Assembly: GCF_964340395.1 (NCBI RefSeq)
Contig: NC_135549.1
Span: 6,323,501-6,387,500, forward strand
From: Glandiceps talaboti
Lineage: Eukaryota; Hemichordata; Enteropneusta; Spengelidae
DNA: 64,000 nt
Direction: 5' to 3'
Numbering within the stretch: position 1 is the stretch's first letter; each line of letters opens with the position of its first letter. The notes beneath the pieces were generated by a model. That model saw nothing but the letters and a program-made list of their open reading frames with translations, was not told where the DNA came from and did no database searches. The position numbers were made by a program, and so were the translations under genes. Positions 16,496-55,436 of this stretch are shown piece by piece.

Positions 16496-19400
16496 TTAAT
16501 ATGTTGAGATTTGTTTGGTGTCTCTCTGTTTTCCTCTTGTTAATGTCCTAGCTTTGAAGGCGGCAGAGTTGTACATATGCTGTGAAAATCAAAAAAGAGA
16601 AACATTTATAAGTTTACAATCAAACCAAGAAGTCAGTACATACAGTTGACAGAGAGAGAGAGAGTTAGCGGGCATTATTTTTCTGGCAATTATTTCCACA
16701 CATATTGAACAAAGTGACTCTAGCTTCACAGTACAAATTCACATTTTGAGTAATAGTTCACTGAATATCTGAATCAGTTTCAAGAATATTTCTCATCTCT
16801 GCCACTATATCTTTGAAATACAGTACATAGGTACAAATATGTCACACCTAAATATTGCAACCCCAGGTCACTTCTGAAACTACTGGTAGCCCCCTTTCAA
16901 GAGAGCTGTTTGGTCATGCTGAACATCAGTTGGTACAGAGTTTGAGAACTAACACTGGTAAAATCTTAGCACAGAAAAGAACATAATTACAAATCAGCAC
17001 TGTTTTGAATATGAGCTATAAGTGTATAAGTGAACGTGCAGATGTTCTATTTTCACAATATTTATTTGACAAGAAATGCAGAAATAGATGTTAACAAGTT
17101 TTGATGAAACCTCAACTCACCCTTTCATATTTACTAAGTTTGAGTGCTTTAGTATCAGCTACAGTCAATGGAGCACCAAGACCGAAGATTTCTCTCATAA
17201 GTTCATTTTGTTTCAGATGTAGATTCATACCAGCTCCAATAACCTCCCTGAGTGCTCCATACTGTCTTCGTTTAATCCAGCTATCTAGTTCTAGTGCCTC
17301 TGATCCAAACTTTATCAATTCATATGGTACATCATTATCCTGCAACACAAATATCAAATCTTTAGCCTAACAAAGCTAGACTTGCACCAGCAAGTCTGAA
17401 ATCTGCTTGTGCAGAAAATATTTGTATAAATGCATTCTTTCTTTGTATATCTTATAGTTATTCTGCCATTTGTTGAGTCGTGACAATACTCTGACAACAG
17501 GACAAAAGCGTGCCAGTTTCTTGAAACTTTTCGTTGAAACCATCCAGTTTTTATTCTTGTTTTTAATTTAAATTGTCCATGTTGATAGAAGAACTCACCT
17601 CAACTGTTCTCAGTATGTCTCTAAAACTGGATCTTTGTTGTCTTCTGTCTTTCTTAGCACGATACTTATTACTGTCAGTGGCAAGTTCTTTCAATGTCAC
17701 CTTCAATGTATCAATGTCTTCACCTTCAAAATTCTGAAATATAAAACAAATGAAAGTCAAGTATTGCAGACGATTTACCTGTAATATGAATACGTCATCG
17801 CCTTATAAAGATTCATTCATGATCTGTATTCATTTAAAGAGAAGCAGTCCTGAACATCGAGGCTTTTATGGGTTCATTTGTAACATGAATTTCAGAATAA
17901 TATGTATGAGTTGATAAAGATATAGTTTTCTTACCTCATCACGTTCTCTTGAAAGTTCATAAAACAATGCTATAGCTTCACCAGCTGCAATTCTTAGGTT
18001 CACATCATCACTTCTTAGTAATTCTGCTAATTTGGGTAAATGACTGAAAATGAATGTAAGACGCACAGTGTCATATCTCTACCAACCATCGTCACAATGT
18101 GGTTTCTTTCTTTACAGATTACATTACATGATGTTGCATGAATTTCCAAAGAAATACAAATTGTATGGCATGAATTTGCAAAAAAATACAACAAGCAGCA
18201 AATCAAGTTAACATCGACTGATGTTAAAACTTTTCAACTGTAATTTCAATTTCACAAATTAATTGTTTTGGATATGACATCAAATCATATCTTATCCAAT
18301 CTTTCAATGGGACTATAGTGGTGTGTGTTTGTAAATGTAAACAGACACCAAAGAAAAAGGTCTCCAACCTTGGATCTTTTCACTAGAGAACACTTGTGCC
18401 AGTAGGAGAGGGAAAAGTTTATATTACATACAACGAAAATGTTGCCAAGTCCTTGTATACATGGGTTAGTGACACTTATGTATACAGACAGACAGACAGT
18501 CAGACAGACAGACAGACAGACAGACAGACAGACAGACAGACAGACAGACAGAACGATAGACAGAAAGACATACAGAGACAGACAGACAGAGACAGACATA
18601 CAGACAGAAAGACATACAGACAGAGACAGACAGACAGACAGACACAATGCAATATACTCACGTTGGAATCATGGCCTGTATGTGTGACTGTGGTGATATT
18701 GATAGTAGTAATGTCCATGCAGACAACGCTGCAGTGTGAATTGCTGAGATGTTTGGCGAGTGGGATGGTGAACTACCATCTCCTTTCAGATATGAAGCTT
18801 TAAATGTGGATTCCAATAAATTCATTATCTCTATGACAACCTGTGGGGGTGAATAATTTAACACAAATCAGATACCTAATATTGGAGATACTTGACATGT
18901 CAGAGTAAGTCACAAGATGGATCACATACATAAACCTGTTGACAAAGACTGCACTTTTTAGTCCAATATTTCCGGTACTACTAATGTTTCCCTTGTGTGT
19001 TGAGCAAAATTTATGATCATGTTTCATGAACATAACTGGACATTAATCGCAAAACATACTGTTACAGGAATATTTATCGCTTTCAGACATAACATTTCTA
19101 ATAATGTGATTCTGACTTTTCATCTGCAATTTACTTTTTTAAATAAATATCAACAACATACTCAAATCTCAGTCTTTGACACGGACAAACCTACTGACCA
19201 AACAGGCAAATATTTTCTGTAAATAACAGTACCTGTCCATCAACACAATCTGAGTTGTCAACCAACCAACAATCAGACATTCATACACATGACAGATATA
19301 GTGACAATTGAAAGGTTGAAATTGTTGAAAACTTGGAAGTCCAACTCACCAGCATGTCACCAGCAGCAATAAAACAACATAAACCAAGGGCTGTTGAACA

Positions 19401-22400
19401 CTGTGAAACAAATAATACAGACAATCAGCATAGAAACACAGGAGGATTGAATGGCTGAAAGTTATCAACTCAGAAAAGTTAGATTCAAACGATGTGTCCG
19501 CTCCCAAACCTTATCGATATATACAAGCCAAGACACATGTATAGGTCTCCTCTACAATTTTTTTTCGGCATATTGGAACAATATGAGTTGGTCAATTCCT
19601 TAATGCACTACGCTACTAAAATAAGCTACCATAGAGGGTTAGCATATGCACTGATACAAAGCACAGATGGTACTCGCTGGAAACTTCTGTCTCAACTTTT
19701 AGATGTCTGGTGTGTGTGTGTGTGTGTGTGTGTGTGTGTGTGTGTGTGTGTGTGTGTGTGTGTGTGTGTGTGTGTGTGTAAGAATGTAACTCTGTGTGCA
19801 TGTGTGTTTGAGCAAAAATGACCTGGAAAGCAGTGTATGGTAAGGAAATGAGCAGGAGACTATATTTGAGACTCCGAGGCAAGGGTATTTGTGTATAATG
19901 GGATTGAAGAAGGAAGAAACAAAAGGGAAGAAAAGATACAACTGGTGTCTTCAAAATACTACACTTATTCCTTATTGTTTGTTTGAACCTGTAGAGTACT
20001 TATGTTGGCTGTGAAAGAACTTTATTTCTATAGAAACTATACTTACATTTGCTCTGGCCTTGGCACCTGCATTTTTATCTTGTAATATTGTTGTTAGTAT
20101 TGGTTTCAATTCATTGAATATCCCTTCACTATCTTCCCCAGCGCCCAATTGACAGCATAGTAAAATGGCATCTATTGCTGCTAGAGACTGTTCTTCCCCT
20201 TTACCTGCCAATTACAATATTATATTATGTAGGTATGCTAAAAACAGAGGTAGTATAGCTCAGAAGTAGATATGAGACATTGCTTGAGATATCCTATAAA
20301 CTATATGCCAATATAAAGATGTGGCTGAAACTTACACCATTGTTATCAAGATTGTTACTTTCAATATTTACTCTTTCAGGAAAACATATTAAGGAAAGTG
20401 TAGGAAATCTATTCTTAGATAATTGTGTAAAGTATTTCATGTCTGTCTGTCTGTCTGTCTGTCTGATATATTGGTTGATTTCATAGTCACTACACATATT
20501 CCATACTTGTCTTATAGCTTTCATTAATCATGAAATCAAGACAATCATTTTTACAATCAAACAATGATGGTTAATTTCCTCCTTCATTGACAACAATTTT
20601 CAGTAATTTTTTGTGACACTCCTAAATTCCATGATTCTACATTTTTGGGGTGAATTTATGGCAAGCACATCAATAACAACGGTTTTCAGATGATTTCCTT
20701 CCTAAATCCAGTGAAGAAACATACCTTTTTTCAAACACCTTTCAAAACAGTCTGCTAGAGTGGCTTTCCTATCTACCACAAAATCATAGATATACCGACG
20801 ACATAGAGCCTGCTGGATTCCTTCAAGACATACTTGTCTTCCTTTTGCACTGCAGGTGTGTAAAAATAAAGAAGAATATTCAATCCAAACAATTAACTAG
20901 AGATATTACATACATGAAATTGACATATCGTAATTATAACAACACAACTATTGTGGTAATGAAATACACTAAAGGGAGTACTAGGAATGTAATAACTAAC
21001 ATGCCCTCTCGGCTAATTTGAAGTGAAACTAAAACACTTCAAATTACTGTGATGGCCCACAATGTGGTGTTCTCTACCCTTTCTTACAATGACTCACAAC
21101 AAAACCCATGTGCTACTTTGACTCTCAACCACAGTGGAAGTCACATTAGTCATGACAATACAGATATACACATGACTAATTGAATGGATTACCAAAGGTC
21201 AATAACAACAAAATTGTTTTATTAGCATTTGACTCAACATGAACAGTTTCACATCCTTCATCTCACAATACTCTCATCATTTCATACAACTGTTAAAGGG
21301 ACACAAGCTGAGTTTATACATTTTGGGATATAATTTCTGCTGCATACTTAAAAGGTATGCACGGTATTCTACTTACTGAACCATACTTAACCATCACTTG
21401 CAACTAACTGAACTCAAACCTTGTATTAAGATATAACTGATAAAAGATCCGATGATGTAATTTATTATATGTATGAAAAAATGTTTAGCAAATACCTACT
21501 ATGCAATCAAGTATTCTAACAATGCCAGAAGATGAATGCCAATTGTAATGTCATAGAAGACATGTATTGGCATTAACATTATACTAGAATTATTGATTTG
21601 AAATTTTATTTAAACATTTTCACTTGAGTAAAGAGCTTGCAAACTCAGTTTGTGCCCCTTTAACATACAGGAGGTGTGAGTGTGTGTGTGTGTGGGGGGG
21701 GGGGGTCACTTTTACTGATGTAGAAGATTGTAATGTCTTAGTCTATGTAAGTGTGATTGTATTAGTTGTATTTACATGGAGTCTACACAAACACAACTGA
21801 CACATAATCCTATTTCCATTTGTTGACATAATCAGGCACCAGCTTTTCATATTTTTTCAGATATTTTTATGTAGTTATGACACCGACTGACCAATATTTT
21901 TAACTCAATAAGTAACAGGACTAAAATAACAGTTTAGCTGACCCTTCCAGTGTAGTAAACAATGGTATTTATCAAACTCATTTATTCATAACATAAGAAT
22001 TATTAATAATGACTTTTATACATTTCAATTCAATTGTTTAAGTATTTCACATTTAAAATAACTAAATACTTACAGGGACACAGTGCTGACATTGAACTTG
22101 AAGTACACAAATATGTAATTTGATATATACACAAAAATTGACACTGATTTCCAAGTTGAACTCACCTTTTTTGAGTGGTCCCATCTATGTAATCTTTGAG
22201 TTTCTCTTCAAAATCATCTGTTAATTCTGCATCTTCTGCAAGTTCTGCTCCTGCAGGCAAACATGATAAATGTACACATCAGTAAACAGCTGTGACCTTA
22301 AAACCCTTTTCACGTCAAGTACTGCAGAGGTAATGGCTGTGACAGGATTAGGTGTTTTTTAACAGTAACCCTAAACAAGTAAACAAGTGAAAAATTAACC

Positions 22401-55399: not shown

Positions 55400-55436
55400 A
55401 TGTGGCGGCCAACAACAGATAAGAAGTTTGGAGTTG
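55400..55436 (+). CDS. DOCK4: First coding exon of a DOCK3/DOCK4-type Rho GTPase exchange factor (partial)
   Basis: ATG at 55400 encodes MWRPTTDKKFGV and ends in phase 1 before a consensus donor g|gtaagt at 55437. Vertebrate DOCK3 and DOCK4 start with a very similar 12-residue exon (pattern MWxPTxxxKYGV) with the next codon split after its first base, exactly as here. The rest (SH3, DHR1 and the DHR2 catalytic domain, which activates Rac/Rap-type GTPases) would lie beyond the window. The call rests on a short peptide, but the head-to-head position with ZNF277 is the same as DOCK4 in human, which makes it much stronger. The invertebrate gene may be the common ancestor of DOCK3 and DOCK4. Confidence 0.8.

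Follow-up and report, generated by a model that had tools for sequence, protein, structure and literature searches.

The window described here is a 64,000-nucleotide stretch of contig C1 (C1:6323501-6387500) from a genome of 590,416,875 bases in 47 contigs. Towards its right end it carries two genes that start head-to-head, ZNF277 and a DOCK gene, the latter running out of the window to the right; an IFRD gene lies further left, beyond a kinesin-14 gene. From left to right the contig carries IFRD(-), kinesin-14(+), ZNF277(-) and DOCK3/4(+), with RBM15(-) and MAPKAPK2/3(+) following beyond DOCK, a neighbourhood which, as argued below, is probably older than the vertebrate genome duplications. 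A first-pass annotation had proposed that DOCK, ZNF277 and IFRD form a block shared with human chromosome 7; its assignment of the IFRD and ZNF277 genes and of DOCK exon 1 to these strands is borne out, with the coordinates right to the base and the gene models intact.

Coding exon 1 of the DOCK gene begins with the ATG at 55400, encodes MWRPTTDKKFGV and has 55436 as its final base, after which the donor follows at 55437 (G|GTAAGT). In the six frames of the 264 kb made up by the window and its 200-kb right flank (the flank being partly N), this exon is the sole match to the pattern MW.PT(2-6)[YF]G[VIA], and among looser matches to the exon 1 pattern in the same 264 kb it alone has a donor after it. 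The MW.PT start is DOCK3/4-like, and twelve codons prove little alone. The first-pass annotation had made its block depend on further DOCK exons to the right of the window, and they are found there: a bait of human DOCK4 gave zero matches at E<1 against the window alone, and of the 26 matches that it produced at E<1 across window and flank together all 26 are collinear and on the plus strand, spanning 74585-102891 in window coordinates and thus lying entirely beyond the right edge. A genome-wide search with the Pfam DOCK-C2 profile returned seven matches at four loci, one of which (C1:6405909-6406640, plus strand) lies 27 kb 3' of exon 1 on the same strand, and the gene reaches at least C1:6426391, with a span of at least 47 kb. 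The 1211 DOCK residues that were assembled match TPR_DOCK (2.8e-110), DOCK_N (1.7e-47), DOCK-C2 (2.1e-32) and lobes A, B and C of DHR-2 in Pfam. Two putative exons of an N-terminal SH3 region (GWFRGF... and GIFPASYIHLK) were placed at 73.8 and 74.6 kb by likeness to DOCK4. Between 55437 and about 73.8 kb (window coordinates) no DOCK exon was located; exon 2 was likewise not located with three exon 2 peptides in 55.4-74.8 kb, part of which reads N, the best score being 17 against a background of 32.

The kind of DOCK gene was judged from the C2 stretch, over which the window gene shows 55% identity with DOCK4, 49% with DOCK2, 47% with DOCK1 and 43% with DOCK5, the sequences of DOCK5 and DOCK2 being taken from the PDB. 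Over the same stretch a separate DOCK gene, at C16:17.78 Mb, shows 57-58% identity with DOCK1/2/5 and 41% with DOCK4. The two other DOCK-C2 loci, 52% identical to each other and 20-30% to the remaining sequences, are on these identities probably of the distant DOCK6-11 kind. In a tree of eight sequences (at most 133 aligned residues) the window gene and DOCK4 split from the rest with support 79. By elimination, and by a tree of weak to modest support, the window gene is, on sequence grounds, a DOCK3/4 gene.

The other genes of the window could be rebuilt by splicing (Table 1). In ZNF277 all 8 of the 8 introns are GT-AG and the one stop is terminal, with none internal. The protein matches zf-C2H2_2 in Pfam (2.8e-34), and all seven of its matches in a search of the whole genome (590 Mb) are exons of the window gene; we take it to be ZNF277 from by-eye likeness to the human protein, a name that no database search gave. 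Its last intron contains a 36-bp minisatellite (47452-48635; 32.9 copies, 93% match). The IFRD model has an intact reading frame with a single, terminal stop codon, of which 16496 is the final base. A Pfam query lacking exon 6 and the last exon matched both the IFRD domain (4.7e-73) and IFRD_C (3.8e-4), the latter exactly at the cut-off of 21.4 bits, and in the PDB the protein finds the IFRD2 structure (1.5e-133). The genome-wide search for the IFRD family gave four matches, all four within this gene. The kinesin-14 gene that sits between the two, which the first-pass annotation had missed, matches Kinesin (1.3e-102) and Microtub_bd (3.4e-49) in Pfam; its motor occupies residues 540-821 of 832, as expected of the C-terminal type, and has KIFC3 as its best PDB match (1.5e-81), while residues 1-489 gave no Pfam match above the cut-off and the NCBIfam kinesin search no match. 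Because of this gene IFRD and ZNF277 are not adjacent, and IFRD is the second neighbour of ZNF277.

Table 1. Genes and other features at the locus (window coordinates unless C1 is given).
Feature	Position	Strand	Description
IFRD gene (IFRD1/IFRD2 family)	16496..26428	-	11 coding exons, 428 amino acids, rebuilt by splicing
IFRD exons 1-6	26428-26395, 23215-23108, 22250-22166, 20849-20725, 20204-20047, 19400-19350	-	
IFRD exons 7-11	18840-18662, 18043-17935, 17733-17599, 17339-17121, 16579-16496	-	
Kinesin-14 gene (C-terminal motor)	30132..44450	+	15 coding exons, 832 amino acids; exon 3 donor tentative
ZNF277 gene	47214..54994	-	9 coding exons, 454 amino acids, rebuilt by splicing
ZNF277 exons 1-5	54994-54976, 53004-52743, 52558-52467, 52029-51790, 51057-51012	-	
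ZNF277 exons 6-9	50599-50378, 49553-49411, 48957-48786, 47382-47214	-	
Candidate bidirectional promoter	54995..55399	.	405 bp separating the two divergent start codons
DOCK (DOCK3/4 type) coding exon 1	55400..55436	+	12 codons + 1 base
RBM15-type gene	C1:6452585-6455035	-	single open frame, RRM + SPOC domains
MAPKAPK2/3 kinase gene	C1 ~6470035-6475600 (~146.5-152.1 kb, window frame)	+	PDB match; next identified after RBM15

To the right of DOCK, the RBM15-type gene matches SPOC in Pfam (1.7e-26) and has the SPOC domain of RBM15 as its best PDB match (8.5e-48); searched genome-wide, its SPOC part gives one strong match (4.3e-112), at the C1 locus itself, and two weak ones on C23. The kinase gene beyond it finds MAPKAPK2 (MK2, 3.5e-149) and MAPKAPK3 (MK3, 9.3e-141) in the PDB. 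Human DOCK3 lies in band 3p21, with IFRD2 nearby and the order MAPKAPK3-DOCK3-MANF-RBM15B. DOCK3, MAPKAPK3, RBM15B, MANF, NPRL2, TMEM115 and TUSC2 are all listed within chr3:50.34-51.89 Mb (1.55 Mb; PMC6591479 Table 3), and a human CISH-MAPKAPK3-DOCK3 linkage has been described (PMC8198806, PMC4040116). The linkage tests covered six families, three chosen before and three after RBM15 and MAPKAPK had been found. All four families of the human chromosome 3 list that were searched for proved to be on C1, which makes up 6.1% of the genome: MANF at 3.48 Mb, NPRL2 at 12.97 Mb (12971120), TMEM115 at 13.00 Mb (12999730) and TUSC2 at 14.13 Mb. NPRL2 and TMEM115, less than 29 kb apart here, also share the 1.55 Mb of human chromosome 3, and are perhaps a second kept pair on C1.

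Some further features of the window and its flank stand apart from these genes. The right flank holds DUF1151 exons at 189843-191119 (plus strand, 1.2e-16), of FAM107 type, and a CUPID-domain exon at 224579-224932 (plus strand, 2.8e-26), both in window coordinates. At the left end of the window there are exons matching MAM domains at 8067-11712 (plus strand; 4 of 5 above the Pfam cut-off) and, at 2-1275 (minus strand), exons that belong to a Cys-loop ligand-gated ion channel; of these 730-1275 matches both Pfam domains, and 2-655 seems by eye to continue the channel.

The start codons of ZNF277 and DOCK are divergent and 405 bp apart, and the most economical reason for their kept orientation is, as a best guess, that this one short interval would serve both genes as a common promoter. 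A scan of both strands of 54900-55460 found no TATAWA, no CCAAT/ATTGG, no ETS-type match and no match to the NRF1 pattern. The same scan gave a YY1 core match at 54990: a YY1-like CCGCCAT stands at 54988, across the ZNF277 start codon, and an ATGGCGG at 55304, so that two of the three ATGGCGG/CCGCCAT sites of the window lie near the two ends of the interval. The motif was picked only after the sequence had been seen, and a strict YY1 pattern has zero matches across the window. A strong CpG island was looked for at the interval and not found. Experimental material on the pair comes from human deletions: loss of ZNF277 exon 5 leaves DOCK4 expression unchanged in a small sample of lymphoblastoid lines, and a 3' deletion of DOCK4 leaves ZNF277 unchanged in two persons of one family (both PMC4169542). 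Going by the exons named there, neither deletion took out the promoter; what they count against is enhancers within the deleted parts.

Taken as a whole, it appears likely that the neighbourhood predates the vertebrate genome duplications and has been inherited since, with the DOCK/ZNF277 pair held together by a shared promoter and the looser ties kept passively. The duplications would have copied the neighbourhood; the DOCK4 copy (7q31) would then have kept ZNF277 and IFRD1, and the DOCK3 copy (3p21) would have kept MAPKAPK3, RBM15B and a more distant IFRD2 and lost ZNF277. The ties of IFRD, RBM15 and MAPKAPK would persist through slow rearrangement and not through need, because a kinesin-14 gene intervenes and the order beyond DOCK differs from the human one; passive retention suffices for IFRD and for the genes beyond DOCK. 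On the simplest reading, the locus represents the two DOCK regions of human in their unduplicated state. A fuller claim, in which the divergent DOCK3/4-ZNF277 promoter is one unit kept since the common ancestor of hemichordates and humans and the locus is also the intact pre-duplication source of 7q31 and 3p21 by complementary loss, can be put forward tentatively, at somewhat less than even chances.

Several points weigh against the inheritance of such a neighbourhood and against the shared promoter. RBM15 faces DOCK here, and human RBM15B is co-directional with DOCK3; human MAPKAPK3 lies on the opposite side of DOCK3 compared with here. With less than 29 kb between them, NPRL2 and TMEM115 are not independent witnesses. 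BMT2 is found on C4, so that not all of 7q31 can be ancestral, and an extension of the block to include it was ruled out. The Peptidase_S26 search made for IMMP2L gave two matches, both around 35.6 Mb on C1, of which the stronger is IMMP1L-like by eye, and IMMP2L was not counted as linked; in the 264 kb, baits of IMMP2L, GPR85 and BMT2 produced one weak match only (IMMP2L, E 0.29). The CpG ratio of the ZNF277-DOCK interval, 0.87, is raised but not exceptional, its 500-bp windows ranking 102nd and 126th of 1270, and the human deletions in one gene leave the expression of the other unchanged. The grouping of the window gene with DOCK4 has weak to modest support, and a PDB search with the window gene ranks DOCK5 and DOCK2 first. 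Finally, the shared inheritance rests on one hemichordate-like genome and human.

The strongest of the other explanations is passive retention of the whole block, in which there would be no constraint at all and slowly rearranging chromosomes simply left it unbroken. The presence of all four chromosome 3 families on C1, where they are spread from 3.5 to 14.1 Mb and DOCK lies at 6.4 Mb, is chromosome-scale linkage without tight order, just as this explanation expects, and the 23 chromosomes of two hemichordates are reported to correspond generally one-to-one (PMC11175523). As an account of everything it is nevertheless unlikely, given that the DOCK-ZNF277 pair has kept its exact orientation across a 405-bp gap, unlike the shuffled genes past DOCK. 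Less probable again, and distinctly doubtful, is a genomic regulatory block, in which one of the genes, DOCK being the likeliest, would have enhancers in introns of ZNF277, kinesin or IFRD and the genes could not be separated, as the first-pass annotation had supposed in more general terms. Blocks of this kind are one published reason for gene pairs staying together (PMC8851819), and a DOCK gene of at least 47 kb without a located exon up to about 73.8 kb leaves room for elements; however, the coding spans of ZNF277 and IFRD are compact (7.8 and 9.9 kb), the intervening kinesin-14 gene shows that the adjacency of IFRD and ZNF277 is dispensable, and the human deletions (PMC4169542; small samples) leave the partner gene unchanged.

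That the window gene is a DOCK1/2/5 relative, so that its match to human DOCK4 would be one between paralogues, is very improbable. The ranking of DOCK5 and DOCK2 at the top of the PDB matches and the support of only 79 speak for it, but the 17 PDB matches include no DOCK3 or DOCK4 chain, the DOCK1/2/5 slot is filled by the gene at C16:17.78 Mb, and the identity of the window gene to DOCK4 as well as its MW.PT start point the other way; the assignment was rejected on the C2 identities and the tree, with modest support. Chance adjacency, for which nothing was found to speak, can be set aside as a negligible prospect, since random order would be expected to give about 3e-5 such triplets genome-wide by a rough count that assumes 27,463 genes (the annotation of one hemichordate, PMC11175523) and 20,000 human triplets.

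The depth of the comparison depends on the host, which the mitochondrial contig (C40) identifies as likely a Balanoglossus-type hemichordate from its codons and tRNA-Lys. Its gene order is ND2-COX1-COX2-ATP6 (named by eye) and TGA is read as tryptophan; in 955 codons (COX1, ND2 and part of ATP6, with COX2 dropped) none of the 11 lysine codons is AAA and AGA is not seen, and the tRNA-Lys anticodon is CTT. In Balanoglossus mitochondria AAA is absent, tRNA-Lys has CUU and AGA is serine, whereas Saccoglossus reads AAA as lysine, and echinoderms too have tRNA-Lys with CUU but read AAA as asparagine (PMC3121625, PMC2697986). The contig carries COX1 three times with a period of 15,435 bases, probably an assembly effect. 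The host being a deuterostome, the "ancestral bilaterian linkage" of the first-pass annotation goes too far: a comparison of hemichordate and human reaches the deuterostome ancestor and not the bilaterian one. Retention of the DOCK-ZNF277 pair would span about half a billion years.

The locus offers a single-copy reference for two human regions, one of which, 7q31, is of interest in research on language impairment and autism (PMC4169542). It also separates two kinds of linkage within one neighbourhood, a tight divergent pair that was retained and a more loosely linked set whose order changed, so that the reason why certain gene pairs persist becomes directly testable on a 405-bp interval. The literature on these genes yielded no account of them as a conserved block, supplementary tables lying outside that search; no paper was found that pairs "bidirectional promoter" with ZNF277, and there was no match for DOCK3, MAPKAPK3, RBM15B, IFRD2 and 3p21 together or for microsynteny with ZNF277.

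Compared with DOCK4-ZNF277-IFRD1 of human 7q31, the locus is alike in that IFRD lies past ZNF277 on the same strand, and unlike in that introns are far shorter here, that BMT2 is on another contig and that a kinesin-14 gene separates IFRD from ZNF277. The earlier statement that order and orientation are the same as in human therefore stands for DOCK and ZNF277, which are head-to-head in human as well (PMC4169542), and has to be amended on the side of IFRD, where kinesin-14 intervenes. In cattle, DOCK4, ZNF277 and IFRD1 are likewise in one region, and BMT2 is there too, with IFRD1 and DOCK4. With human 3p21 the locus shares a DOCK3/4 gene near MAPKAPK2/3 and RBM15 genes, and MANF, NPRL2, TMEM115 and TUSC2 are here on the contig of DOCK; the human region differs in that it is not known to hold a ZNF277 gene. 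Ancient metazoan microsyntenic blocks are an established phenomenon (PMC8851819), and ZNF277, DOCK and IFRD are not mentioned in the main text of that paper. Such blocks comprise at least three orthologues within a few genes of each other across phyla (PMC8851819), as do IFRD, ZNF277 and DOCK with their one intervening gene, and the block described here is a new example of this known phenomenon.

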